Source: Ruminiclostridium sp. (lineage in GTDB: Bacteria; Bacillota; Clostridia; Oscillospirales; Ruminococcaceae). Taken from it: 44,411 bases of DNA. The notes under the pieces were generated by a model. It saw nothing but the letters and a program-made list of their open reading frames with translations, had not been told where the DNA came from and did no database searches. Positions 26,220 through 37,640 of the stretch are shown one piece after another; position 1 is the first letter of the stretch, and every line of letters begins with the position of its first letter. The DNA lies in NCBI GenBank assembly GCA_017635095.1, contig JAGBMA010000089.1, positions 1 through 44,411 on the forward strand. The letters are read 5' to 3'. The position numbers and the translations under genes are program-made.

Positions 26220-27500
26220 TCAGCCTTTCAGAGCGCGCTGTCCTATATCTTTGCGGTAATGCGCATTCTCGAAGCTTATCTCCGATACCGCAGAGTATGC
26301 CTTGTCAAGAGCGGAGCCAAGATCATCTGCGGTGGCTGTTACGCCGAGGACTCTGCCGCCGGCGGTAAGGAATGTGCCGTTTTCGAGCTTTGTGCCTGCA
26401 TGGTAAACGTAAGCGGAGCCGTCCGCGAGCTGGCCGTTCTCGTCAAATCCGCTTATCGGCAGACCTGTCGGGTACTTTTCCGGATAGCCGCCGCTTGCCA
26501 TAACGACACAGGCACAGCTGCCATTATACCACTCGATATCGAGCTTGTCAAGCTTTTCTTCGTATATCGCTTCGATTATGTCCGCGAGGTCGGTCTTTAA
26601 AAGCGGCAGCACCACCTGTGCCTCCGGATCGCCGAACCGGCAGTTGTACTCGACTACCTTCGCTCCGTTCGGTGTGAGCATAAGTCCGAAGTATAAGCAG
26701 CCCTTGAAAGGTCTGCCCTCTTTCTGCATGGCCTCGATAGTCGGCTTGAATATCTTCTCCATGCATTCTTCTGCTTTTTCCTTTGTATAGAGCGGATTTG
26801 GCGCTATCGTGCCCATTCCGCCCGTGTTGAGACCCTTGTCTCCGTCGTATGCGCGCTTGTGATCCATTGAAGACACCATAGGTTTGACTGTTTTGCCGTC
26901 GGTGAATGCAAGCACGGTAACTTCGGGGCCGGTCATGAATTCCTCAATGACGATCTCGCTGCCGCTTTTGCCGAACTTTCCACCTATGAGCATGGAGTTC
27001 ACCGCGTCAACGGCTTCCTGCTCGTTCTGTGCTATTATAACGCCCTTGCCGAGTGCAAGACCGTCGCACTTGATGACCGCAGGGTAGCTGTTCTGCTGTT
27101 TTATGTAAGCTATCGCCTTGTCCGCGTCTGTGAATGTCTCGTAGGCTGCGGTCGGGATACCGTACTTCTTCATGAGAGACTTCGAGAAGACTTTGCTGCC
27201 TTCGAGAATGGCGGCATTTGCACGAGGACCGAAAGTTCTGAACCCTTTTTCGTTGAGCCTGTCAACCATCCCCATGACAAGCGGGTCGTCCGGTGTCACG
27301 AAAACATAGTCGGGGTGCAGTTTCTCCGCGAGCGCGACCATACCGTCGATATCCGTCGCCTTTACGGGGTGGCATTCCGCAAGCTTCGAGATGCCGCCGT
27401 TTCCGGGCGCACAGTATATCTTCCCGACTTTCGGGGACTGAGACAGAGCCTTTATTACTGCGTGTTCACGACCGCCGCCGCCTACTACGAGTATATCCAT
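26220..27500 (-). CDS. purD: Phosphoribosylamine-glycine ligase
   Basis: The 426-residue GAR synthetase (start MDILVVGGGGREHA, with AAAGGATAATAAC before the ATG) is a full-length ATP-grasp enzyme with GPRANAAILEGSKVFSK, VIKCDGLALGKGVI, EEFMTGPEVTVLAF, MDHKRAYDGDKGLNTGGMG and EYNCRFGDPEAQV. It catalyses the second step of purine synthesis, joining phosphoribosylamine and glycine. It is separated from the rest of the pur genes by two unknown genes and a strong hairpin. Confidence 0.97.
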   Translation of the reverse strand: MDILVVGGGGREHAVIKALSQSPKVGKIYCAPGNGGISKLAECHPVKATDIDGMVALAEKLHPDYVFVTPDDPLVMGMVDRLNEKGFRTFGPRANAAILEGSKVFSKSLMKKYGIPTAAYETFTDADKAIAYIKQQNSYPAVIKCDGLALGKGVIIAQNEQEAVDAVNSMLIGGKFGKSGSEIVIEEFMTGPEVTVLAFTDGKTVKPMVSSMDHKRAYDGDKGLNTGGMGTIAPNPLYTKEKAEECMEKIFKPTIEAMQKEGRPFKGCLYFGLMLTPNGAKVVEYNCRFGDPEAQVVLPLLKTDLADIIEAIYEEKLDKLDIEWYNGSCACVVMASGGYPEKYPTGLPISGFDENGQLADGSAYVYHAGTKLENGTFLTAGGRVLGVTATADDLGSALDKAYSAVSEISFENAHYRKDIGQRALKG

Positions 27501-27627: not shown

Positions 27628-28008
27628 TCACTGCCATATATCTTCGAGGATCTCGTGCTGCACCTTTTTCGGAAAATGCCGCAGTACCGTGTTATACGCA
27701 TGATCGCACAGGTCGCGCACAAGCTCATACGGGACTGTACCTGTGAGCTTCACCCGTACCGTGCATTTCCCGCCGCTCACACGTTCGCTCATGTCTTCGT
27801 GCATCAACAGCGATGTGTCGTTCCTGCCCTGCTCCGAGACTATTATAAGCGCGGCGTCTTCCGTTCCGTCCGCGATAAGCTCGCAGTACGGCTTTCCGTT
27901 CAGCATGAACCGTGTCACGCCCACAGTGTCGTCAAACTCCGTCTCCGTGCCCTTGAGAAGCTCAAGATGTCCGGTAAGTCCGGGGTAGATGTCTTTGCAG
28001 AAGCTCAT
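27628..28008 (-). CDS. Small protein of unknown function in the purine operon
   Basis: The 126-residue soluble protein (LTGHLELLKGTETEFDDTVGV, FMLNGKPYCELIADGTEDAALIIV, LVRDLCDHAYNTVLRHFPKKVQ) overlaps the preceding gene by ATGA. I recognise no family with confidence. The alternating strand/helix pattern suggests a compact alpha/beta fold. It lies between AICAR transformylase and purD, but nothing in the sequence shows a purine role. Confidence 0.6.
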   Translation of the reverse strand: MSFCKDIYPGLTGHLELLKGTETEFDDTVGVTRFMLNGKPYCELIADGTEDAALIIVSEQGRNDTSLLMHEDMSERVSGGKCTVRVKLTGTVPYELVRDLCDHAYNTVLRHFPKKVQHEILEDIWQ

Positions 28009-28637
28009 TGTTCAGCTGTACCTCCCGTTGCTTCTATCTTCGCGAATTTTTTCACGCGTGAAAGATTGCCCAGCCAGAAAAATATATTTATCGTTCCGAA
28101 CGTAGTGCCTATTATGCCCGCTATGCGGCTGTCGCTGTAATCTATCCGTCTGTTTGTTGCTAAGAAGCAGGCGGATTGTGTTGCCACGCGGATAACAAAG
28201 CAGGCGAATACCGCAGTCGTTACAGCGGGAAAGAGGATAGATTCAACAAACAACACAGGAGCCCATACAAACGGGAGCAGAAACATAAACATATACAACG
28301 GTACGAACATTATCATGCTCACGCCGTCGTTCGGCTGCGCAGTAAAAGCTATTACAAACGCCGCCGTGACCGCGCCGGGAATGAACGACGCTATAAGTCC
28401 TCCGCGCATATATACGCGCAGAATGCCGGTCTCGGGTGAGTTTATAAGCTTCGCGTCGGGCAGATCATGCAGCTTTTTGATATAAAGCACTGCCGAAAGT
28501 ATGCCCACAAGAGTCAATAACAGCCCGATATAGCTCGTAATACCGTACCGACCGAGCCGGAGGTAAGTGCCTGTTCCGGTCATAAGCGCCGAAATTGTGG
28601 GCTGAAATAAAGCAAGAAAATGTTCAGACTTTGACAT
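28005..28637 (-). CDS. Membrane protein of unknown function in the purine operon
   Basis: The 210-residue protein starts at MSKSEHFLALF (GAAAGGAAAGCTT upstream of the ATG at 28637). It has about five membrane segments (YIGLLLTLVGILSAVLYI, GLIASFIPGAVTAAFVIAF, MIMFVPLYMFMFLLPF, LFPAVTTAVFACFVI and a C-terminal one). The pattern recalls Yip1-type membrane proteins, but this is not firm. It is translationally coupled to the next gene by ATGA. Confidence 0.65.
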   Translation of the reverse strand: MSKSEHFLALFQPTISALMTGTGTYLRLGRYGITSYIGLLLTLVGILSAVLYIKKLHDLPDAKLINSPETGILRVYMRGGLIASFIPGAVTAAFVIAFTAQPNDGVSMIMFVPLYMFMFLLPFVWAPVLFVESILFPAVTTAVFACFVIRVATQSACFLATNRRIDYSDSRIAGIIGTTFGTINIFFWLGNLSRVKKFAKIEATGGTAEQ

Positions 28638-28672
28638 AAGCTTTCCTTTCACGCCGTCAGGCACTGCGCTTT

Positions 28673-28699
28673 CGCTTCCTTTGGCGTCCAAAGGAAGCG
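28673..28699. repeat. Intergenic 12-bp hairpin
   Basis: Perfect arms CGCTTCCTTTGG / CCAAAGGAAGCG with a three-base loop, next to a second GC-rich palindrome GAGAGcaGGGCagaGCCCtcTCTC (28712-28735). It lies between the AICAR transformylase gene and the membrane protein gene. Confidence 0.7.
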
Positions 28700-28758: not shown

Positions 28759-29934
28759 TCAGTGATGGAACAGTCTTATGCCCGTAAATGCCATAGCGAT
28801 ACCGTACTTGTTGCAGGTCTCGATAACGTTGTCGTCGCGGATAGAGCCGCCGGGCTGAGCTATGAACTCAACGCCGCTGCGGTGAGCGCGCTCGATGTTG
28901 TCGCCGAAGGGGAAGAACGCGTCGGAGCCTAAGGAAACTCCCTTCATGGTGGAGAGCCACTTCTTCTTTTCTTCGACTGTGAATACGTCGGGCTTTACCT
29001 TGAAGATGTTCTGCCAAGCGCCGTCAGCGAGAACGTCCATGTAGTCTTCACCGATATAGAGGTCGATAGCGTTGTCGCGGTCTGCGCGGCGGATGCTGTC
29101 AACGAACTGGAGCCCGAGCACCTGGGGAGACTGGCGGAGATACCAGTTGTCTGCCTTTGTGCCGGCGAGACGTGTGCAGTGTATGCGGGACTGCTGGCCC
29201 GCGCCGATACCGATAGCCTGACCGCCGCAAGCGTATGCAACGGAGTTGGACTGGGTATATTTGAGGGTTATCATGGCGATAGCGAGGTCGCGTTTTGCAG
29301 ATTCGGGGAGATCCTTGTTCTCGGTGACTACGTTTGCAAACAGTTCGTCATTGATAACGAGCTCATTTCTGCCCTGCTCGAAAGTAATTCCGTACACCTG
29401 CTTGCGCTCAATGGGGTCGGGGGTGTAATCGGGGTCGATCTTTATGATGTTGTATGTGCCCTTGCGCTTGGTCTTGAGGATCTCAAGGGCTTCCTGCTCG
29501 TAGCCGGGAGCGATAACGCCGTCGGAGACTTCACGCTGTATCATCTTAGCTGTGGGAACGTCGCAAACGTCGGAAAGCGAGATAAAATCGCCGTAAGATG
29601 ACATTCTGTCTGCGCCGCGTGCTCTTGCGTATGCACAGGCAAGGGGAGAGAGCTTTCCGAGATCATCTACCCAGTATATCTTCTTGAGGGTGTCGGTAAG
29701 CTCGATGCCTACTGCGGCGCCGGCAGGGGAAACGTGCTTGAATGACGTTGCAGCCGGAAGACCGGTAGCCTTTTTGAGCTCCTTTACGAGCTGCCAGCCG
29801 TTGAACGCGTCCATAAAGTTGATGTAGCCGGGCTTGCCGTTGAGAACTTCTATCGGGAGCTCTCCCTTTTCCATAAATATTCTTGAGGGCTTCTGATTAG
29901 GATTGCAGCCGTATTTTAATTCGAGTTCGTTCAT
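28759..29934 (-). CDS. purH: AICAR transformylase, stand-alone (PurH C-terminal domain only)
   Basis: The 391-residue protein matches the formyltransferase half of PurH, with the catalytic Lys66-His67 pair in SFKHVSPAGAAVG, and LKYTQSNSVAYACGGQAIGIGAGQQSRIHC and SDAFFPFGDNIERA. It uses 10-formyl-THF to make FAICAR. The N-terminal MGS-like IMP cyclohydrolase domain of usual PurH (about 520 residues) is absent from the start; it is not broken off. The cyclohydrolase is supplied by the PurO-like gene just upstream. A tandem GC-rich repeat fills the gap between them. Confidence 0.93.
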   Translation of the reverse strand: MNELELKYGCNPNQKPSRIFMEKGELPIEVLNGKPGYINFMDAFNGWQLVKELKKATGLPAATSFKHVSPAGAAVGIELTDTLKKIYWVDDLGKLSPLACAYARARGADRMSSYGDFISLSDVCDVPTAKMIQREVSDGVIAPGYEQEALEILKTKRKGTYNIIKIDPDYTPDPIERKQVYGITFEQGRNELVINDELFANVVTENKDLPESAKRDLAIAMITLKYTQSNSVAYACGGQAIGIGAGQQSRIHCTRLAGTKADNWYLRQSPQVLGLQFVDSIRRADRDNAIDLYIGEDYMDVLADGAWQNIFKVKPDVFTVEEKKKWLSTMKGVSLGSDAFFPFGDNIERAHRSGVEFIAQPGGSIRDDNVIETCNKYGIAMAFTGIRLFHH

Positions 29935-29950
29935 ATTTATTACCTCCGTT

Positions 29951-30018
29951 TTCAGCGCCTCCGCGCTTGTCTTACGCGGACGGCTTCAGCGCCTCCGCGC
30001 TTGTCCTACGCGGACGGC
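29951..30018. repeat. 34-bp tandem repeat between the two FAICAR/IMP genes
   Basis: Two copies (29951-29984 and 29985-30018) differ at one base. Each contains the hairpin TCCGCG-(9)-CGCGGA. Confidence 0.85.
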
Positions 30019-30041
30019 GGCAGGGCTGCGCGCCCTGCACC

Positions 30042-30064
30042 GCGGCAGCGTGACGCTGCACCCA
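30042..30064. repeat. Dispersed 23-bp GC-rich repeat, copy 1
   Basis: It matches 43025-43047 at 21 of 23 bases. Both copies are preceded by an AGGGCTG..GCCCT palindrome and followed by a T-rich tract. Confidence 0.7.
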
Positions 30065-30071
30065 ATATTTT

Positions 30072-30788
30072 TTATACGTTTTTGTTTACGATCCGGGAAT
30101 CGTATTTGCCAGTCTCGATGTCGATGTAGCGGGTGAAGAGGGAAACCTTGTTGTCCTTGTTGAGGTTGTCCCAGACGAGCTTTGTGAAGTCATCGAGAGA
30201 GAGATCCGGGATAACTACGCGCTTTGGTTCGCCCTCATAGCTCGGAAGCGGATCGCCTGCGCCCTTGTATGTGTGGATAAAGCGTCCCTCGCCGTTCTTG
30301 GGGCAGCTGTACGCGTATGTGTTGCGGATAGTGCATTCCGGGTCGCCGTCGAGGCTCTTGATGATATGCATAGCGTAATTCATGTTGCCGCCGTCCGCGT
30401 GCACGATGCCGGAGATGCGGGGAGTGAAGTTCGGCTTGTCGTCCTCGAACTCGCGGAAGCGCAGGGACTGCTCGAATGTCTGCTGCTTGTCCATCTGCTC
30501 GTAGATCGTGTCGGTCTGGTCGCCGTTGGTCACGATGGTCTTTGTGCCGAGCACCTTTACGGGAGCGTAGATTATAAGGTGGGGATCCACCATTTTCGAC
30601 GGGTCAAACGCCTGGGTACGAATACCCTCGCCCTCTTCAACGAAAACGCGGTTGCGGCTGTTTTCGCTTCTTCCCATGATGAAATACGCGATGACCGCGT
30701 TCTTTCCGTCGGGAGACTTGCCGAGGATAATTCCGCGTCCGTGGTATTCGAGGCTGTTAAGTTCCTTTTCGATAGTGATAAGCTCCAT
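30072..30788 (-). CDS. purO: IMP cyclohydrolase, PurO-like
   Basis: The 238-residue protein (LNSLEYHGRGIILGKSPDGKNAVIAYFIMGRSENSRNRVF, TNGDQTDTIYEQM, EFEDDKPNFTPRISG) belongs to the PurO-type IMP cyclohydrolase family known from archaea and some bacteria. It closes FAICAR to IMP. With the stand-alone AICAR transformylase downstream it replaces bifunctional PurH. AAAGGAG precedes the ATG, and it starts 16 bases after the purN stop. Confidence 0.88.
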   Translation of the reverse strand: MELITIEKELNSLEYHGRGIILGKSPDGKNAVIAYFIMGRSENSRNRVFVEEGEGIRTQAFDPSKMVDPHLIIYAPVKVLGTKTIVTNGDQTDTIYEQMDKQQTFEQSLRFREFEDDKPNFTPRISGIVHADGGNMNYAMHIIKSLDGDPECTIRNTYAYSCPKNGEGRFIHTYKGAGDPLPSYEGEPKRVVIPDLSLDDFTKLVWDNLNKDNKVSLFTRYIDIETGKYDSRIVNKNV

Positions 30789-30803: not shown

Positions 30804-31430
30804 TCATCTTTCGACAACAGCAATGCCGTTTTCGACCTTTATTTTTCCGTCGCAGAAGAGCCTTACCGCCTCCGGAAGTATCTTCCACTCCGCTTCTTCC
30901 ATAACTCTTTTCTGCAGTATCTCCGGCGTATCGCCGTTCTTTACCTCTACCGGCTTCTGCAGTATTATCGGCCCGCCGTCGCATTCCTCGGTGACGAAAT
31001 GCACAGTCGCGCCGGTTATCTTCACGCCTTTTTTCAGCGCTTCCTCGTGGACTTTAAGCCCGTAGTAGCCTTTCCCGCAGAACGACGGGATAAGCGCCGG
31101 GTGAACGTTTATCATCTTATACGGAAACGCCCCGCAGACCTGTTCATCGAGTATTGTCATGAATCCTGCATATACCACCAGGTCGGCTTCCGCTTCTTTA
31201 AGGGTTTCCACCATGGCTTTGCTGTAAGCGGCAATGTCGGGGTAAGCCTTTCGTTCGAGGACTTTCGTCTTTATGAAGTTGTCCTTAGCACGTTTGAGCG
31301 CATAGGCGTCCGGTTTGGACGAAATGACGCAGGTTATGCTGCCGTTTCCGAGCTCGCCGCGCTTCTGAGCGTCTATGAGGGCTTGCAGGTTCGTCCCGCC
31401 GCCCGATACGAGTACCGAGATGTTTGTCAT
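30804..31430 (-). CDS. purN: Phosphoribosylglycinamide formyltransferase
   Basis: The 208-residue GAR transformylase has the N-terminal SGGGTNLQALID phosphate loop, the folate/catalytic NVHPALIPSF motif (Asn and His) and GATVHFVTEECDGGPII with the catalytic Asp. It uses 10-formyl-THF for the third step of purine synthesis. The loop after HPALIPSF reads CGKGYYG, in place of the more common PG..A.. pattern. Confidence 0.95.
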   Translation of the reverse strand: MTNISVLVSGGGTNLQALIDAQKRGELGNGSITCVISSKPDAYALKRAKDNFIKTKVLERKAYPDIAAYSKAMVETLKEAEADLVVYAGFMTILDEQVCGAFPYKMINVHPALIPSFCGKGYYGLKVHEEALKKGVKITGATVHFVTEECDGGPIILQKPVEVKNGDTPEILQKRVMEEAEWKILPEAVRLFCDGKIKVENGIAVVER

Positions 31431-32623: not shown

Positions 32624-34045
32624 TTATTCTTTCCCGTTCCAACAGTATGTGCAGAGTCTTCCCTCGGGGAGCCCCACCGCTCTTACCGTGCCGGGGAGAG
32701 ACTGGAATTCCAGAGATGTGAGCTTGAGCCTGCGGCAGATCTCGTCCCGCAGTATGCGTCCGCGCTCGGTGGAGGAATCGCTGTATTCGGCGATGTACTT
32801 CACTCCCTCATCGCCCTCTTTTTCCTGAATGATCTGGCGGGCTATGAGGTCGAGCTCGGAGTTGCTCCGCGAGAAGTTGAGGTACTTGCAGCCGAACATT
32901 ATCGGCGGGCAGGCAGATCTCATATGTACTTCCTTGGCGCCGTTCTCGTAGAGAAATTCCACCGTTTCGCGCATCTGAGTGCCGCGCACGATACTGTCGT
33001 CAACGAACAGCAGCTTCTTTCCCTCGATAAGCTCATGCACCGGTATGAGCTTCATTTTTGCGACCCTGTTGCGCATAGCCTGGGTCTGGGGCATGAAGCT
33101 TCTCGGCCATGTGGGGGTGTACTTGATGAAGGGTCTTGCGAAGGGTATGCCGCTCTTGTTGGCATATCCGATAGCGTGGGGAATGCCGGAATCCGGTACG
33201 CCGCAGACGTAATCAACGTCCGGGAGACGACCGTTCTTGATATCCGTCTCCGCCATGATCTCGCCGTTCCTTGCGCGCATGACCTCAACGTTCACGCCCT
33301 CGTAAACTGCATTCGGATAGCCGTAATAAGTCCACAGGAACGTGCATATCCTCATATTGTACGAACCTTCCGAGAGCGTCTCACAGCCGTCTGCGGTGAG
33401 CTTTACGATCTCTCCGGCAGCCAGTTCCTTGCAGGTCGAATAGCCGAGTTTCTGATACGCGAAAGACTCGAAGGAGAGGCAGTACCCGTCGTTTCGCTTG
33501 CCTATGACGATGGGTAGCCTGCCCTGCTTGTCCCGGGCTGCGATTATGCAGTCCTTGGTCATGATTATGAGGGTGAGGGTGCCTTTGATCTTCTGCTGGG
33601 CATACCGGATACCGTCGGTAAAGTTGTCCTTCTGTGCGATAAGAGCGCCGATAAGAGCGCTGGAGTTGATGTTTCCGCTGCTCATTGACTCAAAGTTCGC
33701 GCAGCCGTTCTCAAGCAGCTCATTGTAAAGCTCGGCCGCGTTATTGATGATGCCGACGTTGCAGATAGCGTAAAGTCCGAGCTTTGATGTCACGAGGATA
33801 GGCTGGGGGTCGCTGTCGCTGATGCAGCCTATACAGAGCTTTCCGCGGATACCCGCGGCGTCTGCCTCGAACTTCGTTCTGAACGGCGAGTTCTCAATAC
33901 TGTGAATGCTTCTCTGGAAGCCGATCTCGGGATCGTATGCAGCCATACCGCCGCGTCTTGTTCCGAGGTGAGAGTGATAGTCTGTTCCGAAGAAAACATC
34001 GGAGATGCAGTCGTTATGCGATATTGCACCGAAAAATCCGCCCAT
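32624..34045 (-). CDS. purF: PurF-type amidophosphoribosyltransferase with degenerate glutaminase domain
   Basis: The 473-residue protein has the PurF two-domain layout. The transferase half is intact: the PRPP loop is VDDSIVRGT (348-356), and four cysteines (Cys234, Cys386, Cys465, Cys468) match the Fe-S ligands of Bacillus-type PurF. The N-terminal glutaminase half is degenerate. The protein begins Met-Gly-Gly-Phe-Phe-Gly where the family has Met-Cys-Gly, so the nucleophile is missing, and no propeptide hides another Cys. The Arg-bearing HVRYST segment reads CISDSD (74-79), and the oxyanion HNGN segment reads NVGI (96-99). The only early Cys is Cys13. It sits in the purF position of the operon between purC and purM. 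It may use ammonia or a partner glutaminase, or be a paralogue beside a normal PurF elsewhere. Confidence 0.9.
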   Translation of the reverse strand: MGGFFGAISHNDCISDVFFGTDYHSHLGTRRGGMAAYDPEIGFQRSIHSIENSPFRTKFEADAAGIRGKLCIGCISDSDPQPILVTSKLGLYAICNVGIINNAAELYNELLENGCANFESMSSGNINSSALIGALIAQKDNFTDGIRYAQQKIKGTLTLIIMTKDCIIAARDKQGRLPIVIGKRNDGYCLSFESFAYQKLGYSTCKELAAGEIVKLTADGCETLSEGSYNMRICTFLWTYYGYPNAVYEGVNVEVMRARNGEIMAETDIKNGRLPDVDYVCGVPDSGIPHAIGYANKSGIPFARPFIKYTPTWPRSFMPQTQAMRNRVAKMKLIPVHELIEGKKLLFVDDSIVRGTQMRETVEFLYENGAKEVHMRSACPPIMFGCKYLNFSRSNSELDLIARQIIQEKEGDEGVKYIAEYSDSSTERGRILRDEICRRLKLTSLEFQSLPGTVRAVGLPEGRLCTYCWNGKE

Positions 34046-34108: not shown

Positions 34109-34816
34109 TCATTCGCCGAAGATGCGTCTTCTGATCTCCTTGTAAGCGTCCTCAACGCCGCCCATATCTCTGCGGAAGCGATCCTTGTCGAGCTTCTCGT
34201 GGGTCTTGGAATCCCAGAAACGGCAGGTATCGGGAGAGATCTCGTCTGCGAGGAGTATCTGACCCTTGAAGCGGCCGAATTCGATCTTGAAGTCGATGAG
34301 GTCTATACCGATCTCCTTGAAGTATTTGAGCATGAACTCGTTTACCTTGAAAGCGTACTTTGCAATTGTATCGAGCTCTTCCTTCGTAGCGATGCCGAGG
34401 GCGAGAGCGTAGTAGTCGTTGATGAAGGGATCGCCGAGGTCATCGTTCTTGTAGCTGTATTCGAGGATAGGTGTGAGCAGAGCCTTGCCCTCTTCAACGC
34501 CCATTCTCTTGGAGAAGCTTCCTGCGGCCACGTTTCTGATGATGACTTCGAGCTGAACGATCTCGACTTTCTTTACGAGCGTCTCACGGTCGCTGAGTTC
34601 CTTTACGAGGTGGGTGGGCACGCCTTCCTTTTCAAGCAGACCGAACATATAGTTGGTCATCTTGTTGTTGATGACGCCCTTGCCTTCGATAGTTCCTTTC
34701 TTCAGACCGTTGAATGCTGTGGCATCGTCCTTGTAGGATACGATAACGAGATCGGGGTCATCTGTCGCGAAGACCTTCTTTGCCTTTCCTTCGTAGAGCT
34801 GTTCTTTCTTTTCCAT
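34109..34816 (-). CDS. purC: SAICAR synthetase
   Basis: The 235-residue protein has all PurC motifs: [75 protein letters not shown] and [14 protein letters not shown]. It ligates aspartate to CAIR. AAGGAAGGA precedes the ATG. It lies between purE and purF. Confidence 0.97.
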
Positions 34817-34899
34817 AGTGCTGTCCTTCCTTTTTTGAATTATTCTTTGGCTTTATCGCTTATCCCGTCCGGAGTTTTACGGCTCCATACGGAATTTAT

Positions 34900-35397
34900 T
34901 TATATTTCTTTTGCAGTCTCCTGCATCTTCGCGTCCGCGGCGAGGTTTTTCCTGTGCTGTTCTTCCTTGAAATCCGCGAACTTTCGCGCGAGCTCGTCAT
35001 CGGAAACGGCAAGGATCTGGACTGCGAGATAACCGGCGTTTGCAGCGCAGTCGATACCTACGGTTGCAACGGGAACTCCGGGGGGCATCATAACGGACGA
35101 GAGCAGGGAATCCACGCCTTCAAGCGCCTTTGCCTTGACCGGGAGTGCTATTACCGGCAGGGTGGTGTTTGCTGCAAGCGCGCCGGCGAGGTGAGCCGCC
35201 ATACCTGCGGCGCCGATAAGTACACCGAAACCGTTTTCACGGGCATTTCTTGCGAATTCTCCGGCTTCGGCGGGGGAGCGGTGAGCCGAGAAAACGTGGA
35301 TCTCGAAGGGTACACCGAACTGTTTGAGGACTTCGGCAGCCTTTCTTACTACGGGGAAGTCACTGTCGCTTCCCATTATTACTGCAACTTTTTTCAT
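34900..35397 (-). CDS. purE: N5-CAIR mutase, PurE class I
   Basis: The 165-residue protein starts at MKKVAVIMGSDSDFPVV and contains FSAHRSP, IGAAGMAAHLAGALAANT and PVIALPV, typical of class I PurE. PurK, which makes its substrate, is not in the window. The only good Shine-Dalgarno (AAGGAG) is about 30 bases upstream of the ATG, separated by a CGCAC/GTGCG hairpin that could bring the two closer. It is the first gene of the purine operon. Confidence 0.95.
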   Translation of the reverse strand: MKKVAVIMGSDSDFPVVRKAAEVLKQFGVPFEIHVFSAHRSPAEAGEFARNARENGFGVLIGAAGMAAHLAGALAANTTLPVIALPVKAKALEGVDSLLSSVMMPPGVPVATVGIDCAANAGYLAVQILAVSDDELARKFADFKEEQHRKNLAADAKMQETAKEI

Positions 35398-35446
35398 GAT
35401 TCTGATCCGCACCCGGCGAGTGCGCAGCTCCTTTCGGGGAAAAAAT

Positions 35447-35458
35447 TGGTATATACCA
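35447..35458. promoter_or_regulatory. 12-bp palindrome in the purE leader
   Basis: TGGTATATACCA is a perfect palindrome between the leader hairpin and the purE ribosome binding site. It could be an operator. Confidence 0.3.
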
Positions 35459-35475
35459 TTTAAATATATATTACA

Positions 35476-35521
35476 ATACAACATATTGACGATCTGAGGG
35501 AGATGTCACAAAATGTTGTAT
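35476..35521 (-). promoter_or_regulatory. Long leader hairpin of the purine operon
   Basis: Nine-base outer arms (ATACAACAT / ATGTTGTAT) enclose an internal loop and then an inner stem TGAC-ATCT / AGAT-C-GTCA with a bulged C and a CCCTC loop. It lies in the transcribed leader between the promoter and purE. It matches no purine, ZTP or PRPP riboswitch consensus I can recall. Confidence 0.45.
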
Positions 35522-35548
35522 CACGCCGTTTGAAAAAACTACACCTCT

Positions 35549-35577
35549 ATTTTACAATATTTCACATTTAAATTCAA
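35549..35577 (-). promoter_or_regulatory. Promoter of the purine operon
   Basis: On the minus strand it reads TTGAAT, 17 bases, TAAAAT. It gives a leader of about 145 bases before purE. Confidence 0.6.
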
Positions 35578-36072
35578 GCATTTTCGGAAAATAAATTCAA
35601 CATTTTTTCATTCTGCGCCAATATCAAAACAGTGATATTGCACAAGAGGGGGGTGTTGAAAACTTTGTTGAAAGTTGGTTTAAAGTTAAAATTAGGTAAA
35701 TTTAAGCGCAAAAGACATAAATATTACTTAATATTTAGGATAAAAGCGATTACAAAGTTATTACAATTTAGTGCAGAATTACATCGAAAACGATTACAAA
35801 ATTGATGTTAAATTTTTCGTGCATAATTGCTAAAACAAGCTTGTCGGGTTTGAAATAATAAAGTTATACAAACTAATCAAAGCTAAAACATTTCAAAAAT
35901 CAAAGCCCGGAAAACCTTTATAAATCGGCACATAAATCAAGATGTACTTCACAAATCCGGAAAAATATGCCTGAAAAAAACAGTCTATGTCAAAATGTAC
36001 AAAAATTTACGGTTAATATACAGCCTGTAAACGATTTCCGAATTTTGGCCAGAAAATTTTTGAAAAAAAGAC
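35578..36072. other. AT-rich divergent intergenic region
   Basis: About 500 bases without a supported gene lie between the divergent purine and sugar-importer operons. It is markedly AT-rich. The 10-base CGATTACAAA occurs twice (35747-35756 and 35791-35800), and a CcpA-like site is at 36026-36039. Confidence 0.6.
36026..36039 (+). promoter_or_regulatory. CcpA-type (cre-like) operator
   Basis: TGTAAACGATTTCC matches the cre consensus TGWAAACGWTNNCA at all but the last position. It lies 33 bases upstream of the -35 box of the sugar-importer operon, a plausible place for LacI/CcpA-family control. Confidence 0.4.
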
Positions 36073-36101
36073 TTGCAAAACCGTAAAATTTGTGATATAG
36101 T
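36073..36101 (+). promoter_or_regulatory. Promoter of the ABC importer operon
   Basis: TTGCAA, 17 bases, TATAGT. The leader of about 100 bases contains a hairpin at 36111-36151 (AATTGC / GCAATT with inner GGACG / CGTCC). Confidence 0.75.
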
Positions 36102-36206
36102 TACAAATGAAATTGCGGGACGTGATTTAAGTACCGCGTCCGACGGCAATTTAAAATCATTGAGAGGTCATATTGAATGACCGCGATCTTTTTGGAGGAA
36201 AGAACT

Positions 36207-37640
36207 ATGAAGAAAAGAATTATGTCCGCTCTTCTCGCTTCCGCAGTTATCCTGTCGGTAGCAGGATGCGGCAACAACAGCACTGCTTCCACAACAACAG
36301 CTGCTGCAACCACAACAGCCGCTGCAGCTGGCAATGACACAACAGCAGCAGCAGAAACAACAGCAGCTCCCGCTAACGACGCTGATGAGACAGCTGCTCC
36401 CGCTCCCGCTGCTGATGAGGGAACAACATTCAACATCTACGCTTGGAACGAAGAGTTCAAGGGCTTCTTCGAGAAGTATATGCCCGGCTATGATGCAGAC
36501 GCTAAGACACTTAACGGTGTTAAGGTAGTTTGGACGATCAATCCTTCCGATGACGGTGTTTACCAGGATAAGCTCGACCAGGCTCTCCAGGCTAACGCAA
36601 CAGCTTCCGCTGATGACAAGGTTGATATGTTCCTTGCTGAGGCTGACTACATCCTCAAGTACACAGATTCCGATTACACAATGGATATCTCTCAGATCGG
36701 TCTTTCTCAGGTTGACACAGAGTACCAGTACACAGTATCTGCTGCTTCCGACTCCAACGGCAAGATCAAGGGCGTATCCTTCCAGTGCTGCCCGTCCGCT
36801 CTTATCTACAGAAGATCTATAGCTAAGGACGTTCTCGGTACAGACGATCCCGCTGAAGTTCAGGCTCAGCTCGATTCTTGGGATAAGTTCGACGCAACAG
36901 CTGCTAAGGCTAAGGAACTCGGCTACTACATGACAGCTTCCTTCTGCGAGACATACCGTGTATTCTCCAACAACGCTACATCTCCTTGGGTAACAGGCGG
37001 CCAGCTTGCTATTCCGGACGTTGTTAACCAGTGGATCGACCAGGCTGATACATACCTGAAGAACGGTTATACACTCACAGCAGGCATTTGGGATGACGAA
37101 AAGAACGCTCAGATGTTTGCTGACGGTAAGACAATGTGCTTCTTCGGACCTGCTTGGTACTTCAACTTCTGCATGGGCAATGCAAAGGATCCCGATAAGG
37201 GCTGCTACGGCGACTGGGCTATCACAAAGGGCCCGCAGGCTCACTTCTGGGGCGGTACATGGATCCTCGCAGCTACAGGTACAGACAACGGTTCCCTCGT
37301 TGCTGACGTTATGAGAGCATTCACAGAGAATGAAGAAGTTTGCGAAAACCTCGTCAAGAACGAAGGTCAGTTCACAAACAACAAGACTGTAAACGCTAAG
37401 TTCGCTGAGGATCCCGACTATGGTAACGCATTCCTCGGTGGTCAGAACGATGTTGCAGTATTCAGCAGCATGACAGACGATATCAAGTTCCAGAACAACA
37501 CCATCTACGATCAGCTCCTTAACGAAGGTATCCAGACCTACATCAAGGACTACTTCGTAGGCGCTTGCGATAAGGACACAGCACTTGCTAACTTCTACGG
37601 CTATGTAAACGAGAAGTATCCTGCAGTTCAGACTCCGTGA
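36207..37640 (+). CDS. Extracellular solute-binding lipoprotein of a carbohydrate ABC importer
   Basis: The 477-residue protein starts at MKKRIMSALLAS (GGAGGAAAGAACT before the ATG). It has a lipobox (LSVAGC) and a Thr/Ala-rich linker to about residue 75, then a family 1-type sugar-binding fold (FNIYAWNEEFKGFFEKYMP, VDMFLAEADYILKY, FADGKTMCFFGPAWYF, HFWGGTWILAATGTDN). It should capture a sugar or oligosaccharide outside the cell and pass it to the two permeases that follow. Codon use is strongly biased to gct, aca and aag like the ribosomal protein genes, which suggests very high expression. The substrate cannot be read. Confidence 0.9.
   Translation: MKKRIMSALLASAVILSVAGCGNNSTASTTTAAATTTAAAAGNDTTAAAETTAAPANDADETAAPAPAADEGTTFNIYAWNEEFKGFFEKYMPGYDADAKTLNGVKVVWTINPSDDGVYQDKLDQALQANATASADDKVDMFLAEADYILKYTDSDYTMDISQIGLSQVDTEYQYTVSAASDSNGKIKGVSFQCCPSALIYRRSIAKDVLGTDDPAEVQAQLDSWDKFDATAAKAKELGYYMTASFCETYRVFSNNATSPWVTGGQLAIPDVVNQWIDQADTYLKNGYTLTAGIWDDEKNAQMFADGKTMCFFGPAWYFNFCMGNAKDPDKGCYGDWAITKGPQAHFWGGTWILAATGTDNGSLVADVMRAFTENEEVCENLVKNEGQFTNNKTVNAKFAEDPDYGNAFLGGQNDVAVFSSMTDDIKFQNNTIYDQLLNEGIQTYIKDYFVGACDKDTALANFYGYVNEKYPAVQTP

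Follow-up and report, generated by a model that had tools for sequence, protein, structure and literature searches.

The window analysed here (i.e., the whole stretch of 44,411 nucleotides) carries on its minus strand a cluster of purine biosynthesis genes, in the order purE-purC-PurF*-purM-purN-IMP cyclohydrolase-AICAR formyltransferase-two ORFs-purD. We use the name PurF* for the product of its third gene and for the relatives of this protein, which are PurF homologues without glutaminase residues. The genes are the following:

34900..35484, minus strand, purE (TIGR01162)
34109..34816, minus strand, purC (TIGR00081)
32624..34045, minus strand, PurF* gene, encoding a PurF homologue of 473 aa without glutaminase residues
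31502..32539, minus strand, purM (TIGR00878)
30804..31430, minus strand, purN (TIGR00639)
30072..30788, minus strand, IMP cyclohydrolase-like gene of the archaeal PurO type (PF07826)
28759..29934, minus strand, AICAR formyltransferase gene (NF005492)
26229..27500, minus strand, purD, extent of the match (TIGR00877)

As the first-pass annotation had proposed, the PurF* gene lies in the purF position, i.e., between purC and purM. In this cluster, the AICAR formyltransferase and the PurO-like IMP cyclohydrolase are encoded by separate genes (28759-30788), which replace the bifunctional PurH. The AICAR formyltransferase gene is separated from purD by two ORFs of 126 and 228 aa (27628-28691) to which no function is assigned; the 126-aa one is found again in close relatives. 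No known RNA family was detected at gathering scores in nine sources, nor at E 0.1 in the window at 34800-36300.

PurF* proteins were compared with canonical PurF in two alignments, the main one setting 93 PurF* rows beside 49 canonical ones and Bacillus subtilis PurF, and the second one with 62 diverse PurF* rows and B. subtilis PurF. The sites concerned in the window gene are listed below:

34040..34042, minus strand, codon 2 (Gly), where canonical PurF has its Cys nucleophile (Gly in 58 and Ser in 4 of 62)
33944..33988, minus strand, residues 20-34, GTDYHSHLGTRRGGM, a signature replacing the canonical LQHRGQES segment (alignments)
33818..33823, minus strand, residues 75-76, site of the 8-residue glutamine-loop gap in the 93-row alignment (edges differ in the 62-row alignment)
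33749..33760, minus strand, residues 96-99, NVGI, replacing the oxyanion segment HNGN (93-row alignment)
33662..33664, minus strand, residue 128, Ser, replacing Asp127 in B. subtilis numbering (alignments)
33344..33346, minus strand, Fe-S ligand Cys234 (alignments)
33050..33124, minus strand, residues 308-332, PRTase flexible loop, altered but with the PRPP-contact residues kept (alignments)
32978..33004, minus strand, residues 348-356, VDDSIVRGT, PRPP loop (DDSIVRGT in 93/93)
32888..32890, minus strand, Fe-S ligand Cys386 (alignments)
32642..32653, minus strand, Fe-S ligands Cys465 and Cys468, CTYC (alignments)

The window PurF* starts with MGGFFG, and its Gly2 confirms the Met-Gly-Gly start, devoid of the N-terminal nucleophile, that had been read from the sequence. 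Cys is found at position 2 in none of the 62 diverse members. Moreover, the MGGFFG start is present in 78 of the 80 closest among 100 confirmed relatives, the two exceptions being cut by a contig edge (L049) or having unread letters there (L087). This conservation, together with Gly or Ser in 62/62, means that codon 2 was not misread in sequencing. A start missed further upstream, or a Cys elsewhere at the N-terminus, was also ruled out, as there is no upstream extension: the open frame counts only 474 aa, which leaves no room upstream for a propeptide and a Cys.

The losses extend to the other glutaminase residues. In the canonical rows, the Cys of the ECG motif is found in 54/54, and Arg72, Tyr73, Thr75, Asn102, Gly103 and Asp127 in 49/49. 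In PurF*, on the contrary, the segment between B. subtilis Gly69 and Gln85 is 8 residues shorter, with a gap at 72-79 in 93/93 rows whose edges are uncertain, since the 62-row alignment fills three of these eight columns and thus places the gap differently. The oxyanion Asn102 is replaced by Val or Ile (93/93), and Asp127 is never Asp (among the 93 rows, Ser 70, Ala 9, Pro 4, Ile 4, Thr 3, Asn 3). Hence, aligning the N-terminal part with canonical PurF (93 against 49 rows), as the first-pass annotation had recommended, reveals that the glutaminase residues are absent. This annotation had rightly placed CISDSD at 74-79 and NVGI at 96-99 (VDDSIVRGT being at 348-356), and had described the Arg, oxyanion and Asp-Ser-Glu segments as replaced. 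The losses of the oxyanion Asn102 and of Asp127 stand; the description of the Arg segment has to be refined, as the glutamine loop is for the most part absent.

Because the nucleophile, the glutamine loop and the oxyanion Asn are all gone, the N-terminal domain would be unable to hydrolyse glutamine. This domain has conserved residues of its own, i.e., Asp22, His26, Leu27, Gly28, His48, Phe55 and Arg56 (93/93 and 62/62), His24 and Thr29 (93/93 and 61/62), as well as Arg45 and Pro54 (93/93, but 58/62 and 48/62 in the diverse rows). Such new conserved residues suggest that the N-terminal domain is maintained for some purpose, and hint at a function beyond simple ammonia use.

The PRTase side is, for its part, well preserved. 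The PRPP loop and the four Fe-S cysteines had been described as intact, and the 93 rows bear this out without exception. Among the 62 diverse rows, the loop shows a single change (Ile352 to Val), and the four Cys ligands are kept in 62/62. The equivalents of the PRPP-contact residues Arg321, Lys328, Arg350 and Phe313 of B. subtilis are found in 93/93 rows, with Thr312 changed to Ser in 93/93, and this set also holds in 62/62 diverse rows. In E. coli numbering, which was matched to that of B. subtilis by motif, without superposition, these residues are Arg342, Lys349, Arg371, Phe334 and Thr333 (Ser in PurF*). According to passages of a work on E. coli PurF (PMC7953260), its glutamine loop corresponds to R73-E84, in which Arg73 and Thr76 touch the glutamine analogue; Tyr74, together with Ile335, can line the ammonia channel on one side. 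In the 93 PurF* rows, the equivalent of this Ile335 is Met (88) or Thr (5).

The window PurF* obtains 189.3 bits with TIGR01134, below the cut-off of 350, while the canonical PurF of the same genome reaches 509. Its PRTase domain scores 19.7 with the Pfam Pribosyltran model, under the cut-off of 26.3. An AlphaFold2 prediction based on 25 aligned members gave a mean pLDDT of 79.8 and a pTM of 0.82, with a pLDDT below 50 in the PRTase loops 281-319 and 351-356. The best solved match found by Foldseek was 1ao0_A, i.e., B. subtilis PurF (E 6.6e-30, TM 0.70, rmsd 8.3). This predicted model supports the fold, not the active site.

PurF* proteins form a group of their own. In a maximum-likelihood tree, 62 PurF* and 22 canonical proteins, the latter including sequences from Enterococcus, Paracoccus, Sphingomonas, Georgenia, Saprospira and Serratia, are split by one branch with a support of 100/100; as the root is the midpoint, the tree shows the split and does not indicate the older side. 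Over six PurF* pairs, dN ranges from 0.053 to 0.104 in the N-terminal domain (dS 1.04-1.88) and from 0.031 to 0.062 in the PRTase domain (dS 0.93-1.40), dS values above 1 being near saturation; a seventh pair was left out as its lengths differ. PurF* is under purifying selection in both domains. Thus, the idea that one activity was lost, not that the gene decays at random, is upheld by this selection and by the existence of a conserved clade.

The genome of the window also encodes a canonical PurF, which starts with MIGSIHEECGVFG and is carried by another contig (C114), unlinked to PurF*. We then considered how PurF* and canonical PurF are distributed. In a phylum sample, PurF* was found in 18/299 genomes including that of the window, and the 17 others all have a canonical PurF. 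These other genomes hold 18 PurF* loci, with a pur gene within the 1.5-kb flanks in 4 and none in 14. In a class sample, PurF* was found in 83/293 genomes, including that of the window. Among the 82 others, 4 had a canonical PurF from the phylum search and 78 were searched for it: 54 have one, another (G472) has a copy in two pieces, and 23 are without. In a family sample of 60 genomes including that of the window, 4 have neither protein, 6 have PurF* only, 14 have both (with a broken or shortened PurF* copy in two) and 36 have canonical PurF only. In a genus sample of the same size, also including it, the respective numbers are 7, 8, 26 and 19, these classes being assigned by score and many genomes being incomplete. 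In three of the eight genus-sample genomes with PurF* only (G658, G664, G669), PurF* is in a pur cluster.

We therefore count 29 PurF*-only genomes (6 from the family and 23 from the class sample, the 8 genus cases being excluded). The search for a second purF with an N-terminal Cys, which had been suggested from the start, is thus positive in the window's genome and negative in these 29, some of which are doubtful. Indeed, some may be assembly gaps, since canonical PurF is found in congeners of G502, G466, G544, G583, G572, G501 and G531; the PurF* match of G572 is partial (1-313). The firmer cases are G537, 3/3 in g314, 2/2 in g404 and 5/5 PurF* genomes of families f132 and f133. In G537, which is a single contig, purE, purC, PurF*, purM, purN, IMPCH, AICARFT and purD follow each other in this order, with PurL next. 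Both purD and PurL (over the model cut-off) are present in 28 of the 29, G531 having neither, so that these genomes hold genes for later steps of the pathway with PurF* as their sole detected PurF. In the family sample, purD does not reach the cut-off in any of the four genomes devoid of PurF; three of them are without a PurL match and the fourth has a partial one at a contig edge. Likewise, the PurF* search gave no candidate in two class genomes (G215, G360), and both purD and PurL are absent from them. On the gene tree, the PurF*-only status requires at least 13 changes when 47 rows are labelled, and 11 when three doubtful rows are set aside, leaving 44. Eight pur regions were checked in PurF*-only genomes whose PurF* is elsewhere. 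In seven, purE or purC directly precedes purM, and the stretch holds no PurF of either kind; in the eighth (G502), purD stands alone. With the query used, purC went undetected in five of the seven.

An unverified 'Bacteriophage sp.' record (L210, MT836108.1), which is probably bacterial DNA, encodes a PurF* 80.6% identical to that of the window. On Bradyrhizobium megaplasmids, weak PurF-like 'hypothetical proteins' (H28-H30) show 23-24% identity.

Taken together, these data lead us to propose, with a probability of roughly 0.7, that PurF* is an ammonia-dependent PRPP aminotransferase making 5-phosphoribosylamine (PRA) for purine synthesis. Free NH3 would enter at the former site of the glutamine loop and of the ammonia-channel Tyr, and would then attack PRPP in the intact PRTase site, while the Ntn N-domain, unable to split glutamine, would be retained, along with invariant residues of its own, for a structural or ligand-sensing role. 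The loss of the glutaminase would leave a known activity: according to published work, both ambient NH3 and glutamine serve yeast PPAT for PRA formation (PMC12017579), and E. coli PurF is still able to use ammonia once its Cys is replaced (PMC3261824). The first-pass annotation had left three options, i.e., an ammonia-dependent, a partner-dependent or a regulatory protein, among which comparative genomics favors the first, by the presence of purD and PurL in 28/29 PurF*-only genomes and by the lack, around PurF* genes outside full pur operons, of a recurrent neighbour that could act as a partner.

The gene order bears directly on the second of these options, in which a separate glutaminase, or the canonical PurF in a mixed oligomer, passes ammonia to PurF*. 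In the 80 closest of the 100 confirmed relatives, PurF* is always in a pur cluster, preceded by purC (68) or purE (9), or by a gene that lies beyond the contig edge (3), and followed by purM (61) or, in tandem, by canonical purF (19). The same tandem is present in 13 of the 20 congener loci obtained from the genus-sample search. In G012, which belongs to the window's own genus, canonical purF occupies the PurF* slot and PurF* has no match. The tandem would suit a partnership, as would the proximity of purF and purF' in Crenarchaeota, described in passages of PMC3261824. We nevertheless hold a partnership to be unlikely, as no canonical PurF was found in 29 genomes (some doubtful) and as no gene family recurs in more than 3 of the 24 loci examined outside full pur operons. 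This last comparison covered ORFs of at least 90 aa within 6.5 kb, some of these stretches being cut by contig ends, and an unlinked or small partner would escape it.

The tandem arrangement is also compatible with a regulatory pseudo-enzyme, binding PRPP or nucleotides and controlling canonical PurF or the pur operon, and so are the retained PRPP loop, the new invariant residues of the N-terminal domain and the canonical PurF accompanying PurF* in all 17 other genomes of the phylum sample. However, a purely regulatory role fits badly in PurF*-only genomes, since 28/29 of them have purD and PurL, and the whole PRPP-contact set is kept along with the Fe-S ligands, which makes this explanation improbable.

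Still less probable is that PurF* acts as a PRTase on another amine acceptor, the PRA of PurF*-only cells coming from side reactions (ribose 5-phosphate with ammonia, or TrpD). Passages of PMC3485032 do report PurF-independent PRA formation in Salmonella mutants, but the paper also says that purines must be supplied to PurF-less strains, save under certain conditions. PurF* is found directly before pepT in Peptoclostridium acidaminophilum (L194, 8001-10800) and in Bacteroides finegoldii (L195, 10001-13904, there also with gcvT), which would agree with another acceptor; this link is not repeated among the remaining loci, L116 to L193, many of which have 1.5-kb flanks only, and purM directly follows PurF* in most of the closest relatives. 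The Bacteroides record (NZ_OY725932.1) is a 45-kb sequence labelled as a plasmid; it includes housekeeping genes such as eno, pth and nusB, and may thus be a circularised piece of chromosome. Finally, a relic on its way to loss, as exemplified by one frame-broken PurF* adjoining an intact canonical purF (G019; L017, 2884-4297), is contradicted for the clade as a whole by its conservation and by purifying selection in both domains, and can practically be dismissed.

If PurF* is an ammonia-dependent enzyme, as we propose, the location of the canonical purF in the window's sublineage deserves attention. On C114 (L128, 3287-11638), glutamate-synthase-like ORFs, under the model's cut-off, are divergent from a glutamine synthetase gene, the canonical purF and a gene for an ammonium transporter/P-II fusion. 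The start of purF overlaps the stop of the glutamine synthetase gene by ATGA. This glutamine synthetase matches Pfam Gln-synt_C and Gln-synt_C-ter and stays under the NCBIfam cut-offs; from its length, we take it to be GlnN, of type III. The ammonium transporter is over the TIGR00836 cut-off, the models for its fused P-II domain being under theirs. The assembly has a contamination score of 4.18%, and a contaminant origin of C114 was considered; against it, copies 84-97% identical are found at 11 loci in ten congener genomes, which were picked because their canonical purF is not beside PurF*. At these loci, the same glutamine synthetase gene lies next to canonical purF, on its upstream side, in 10/11, and the Amt/P-II gene lies downstream of it in 9/11. 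Since 13 of 20 congener loci carry the tandem, this order marks one sublineage only.

This location suggests a nitrogen-source switch in the sublineage: PurF* would work with ammonia as long as this is abundant, the canonical, glutamine-using PurF taking over under ammonia scarcity. By analogy with Prevotella ruminicola 23, the glutamine-dependent PurF of the sublineage may serve low ammonia. Indeed, passages of PMC5552732 indicate that ammonium is the preferred nitrogen source of rumen bacteria, and that amtB, glnK, glnN, gltBD and the asparagine synthase gene asnB of this strain are strongly induced by ammonium limitation; the abstract of the same paper, against these passages, gives a similar GS-GOGAT expression at limiting and excess nitrogen (ammonium). 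The joint reading, i.e., that a widespread ammonia-only PRPP aminotransferase has replaced or joined the glutamine enzyme in Clostridia and that, in the window's sublineage, both are split as a nitrogen switch between the pur operon (PurF*) and a glutamine synthetase-ammonium transporter/P-II operon (glutamine PurF), has in our opinion slightly better than an even chance of being right.

Compared with known systems, PurF* shares with canonical PurF of the B. subtilis type (TIGR01134; 1ao0) the overall fold, the PRPP loop, the Fe-S cysteines and the place in the pur operon, whereas it is without Cys1, the oxyanion Asn and most of the glutamine loop, falls at 189 against a cut-off of 350 bits, and is separated by the 100/100 branch. 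The closest precedent is the crenarchaeal PurF', which, in passages of PMC3261824, is a PurF homologue without the N-terminal Cys, encoded near purF and other pur genes, and for which its authors proposed an ammonia-dependent activity as a hypothesis; the likeness concerns these described features. According to the same passages, each genome of the Crenarchaeota studied has both PurF and PurF', whereas PurF* is the sole PurF found in 29 genomes. In searches of the open-licence literature, judged mostly by titles and the first lines of abstracts, we recognised no paper describing a bacterial counterpart of PurF', which is weak evidence of absence.

Elsewhere, one product can be made by two enzymes, one with free ammonia and the other with glutamine, as for AsnA/AsnB and the forms of NadE, which are unlike PurF; to our knowledge, no such split is described for the PurF step. 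Purine synthesis is presented in teaching as requiring glutamine at its first committed step, and PurF* was labelled amidophosphoribosyltransferase in both annotated records examined, so that annotation is affected. The comparisons made here suggest that many gut and rumen bacteria carry PurF* and that some seem to rely on it alone, building their purines directly from ammonia. The PurF* clade makes the old question of a physiological use of ammonia at the PurF step directly testable. If our reading is true, such bacteria would need ambient ammonia, instead of glutamine, for this one step, a point that may be relevant to the nitrogen ecology of the rumen and the gut.
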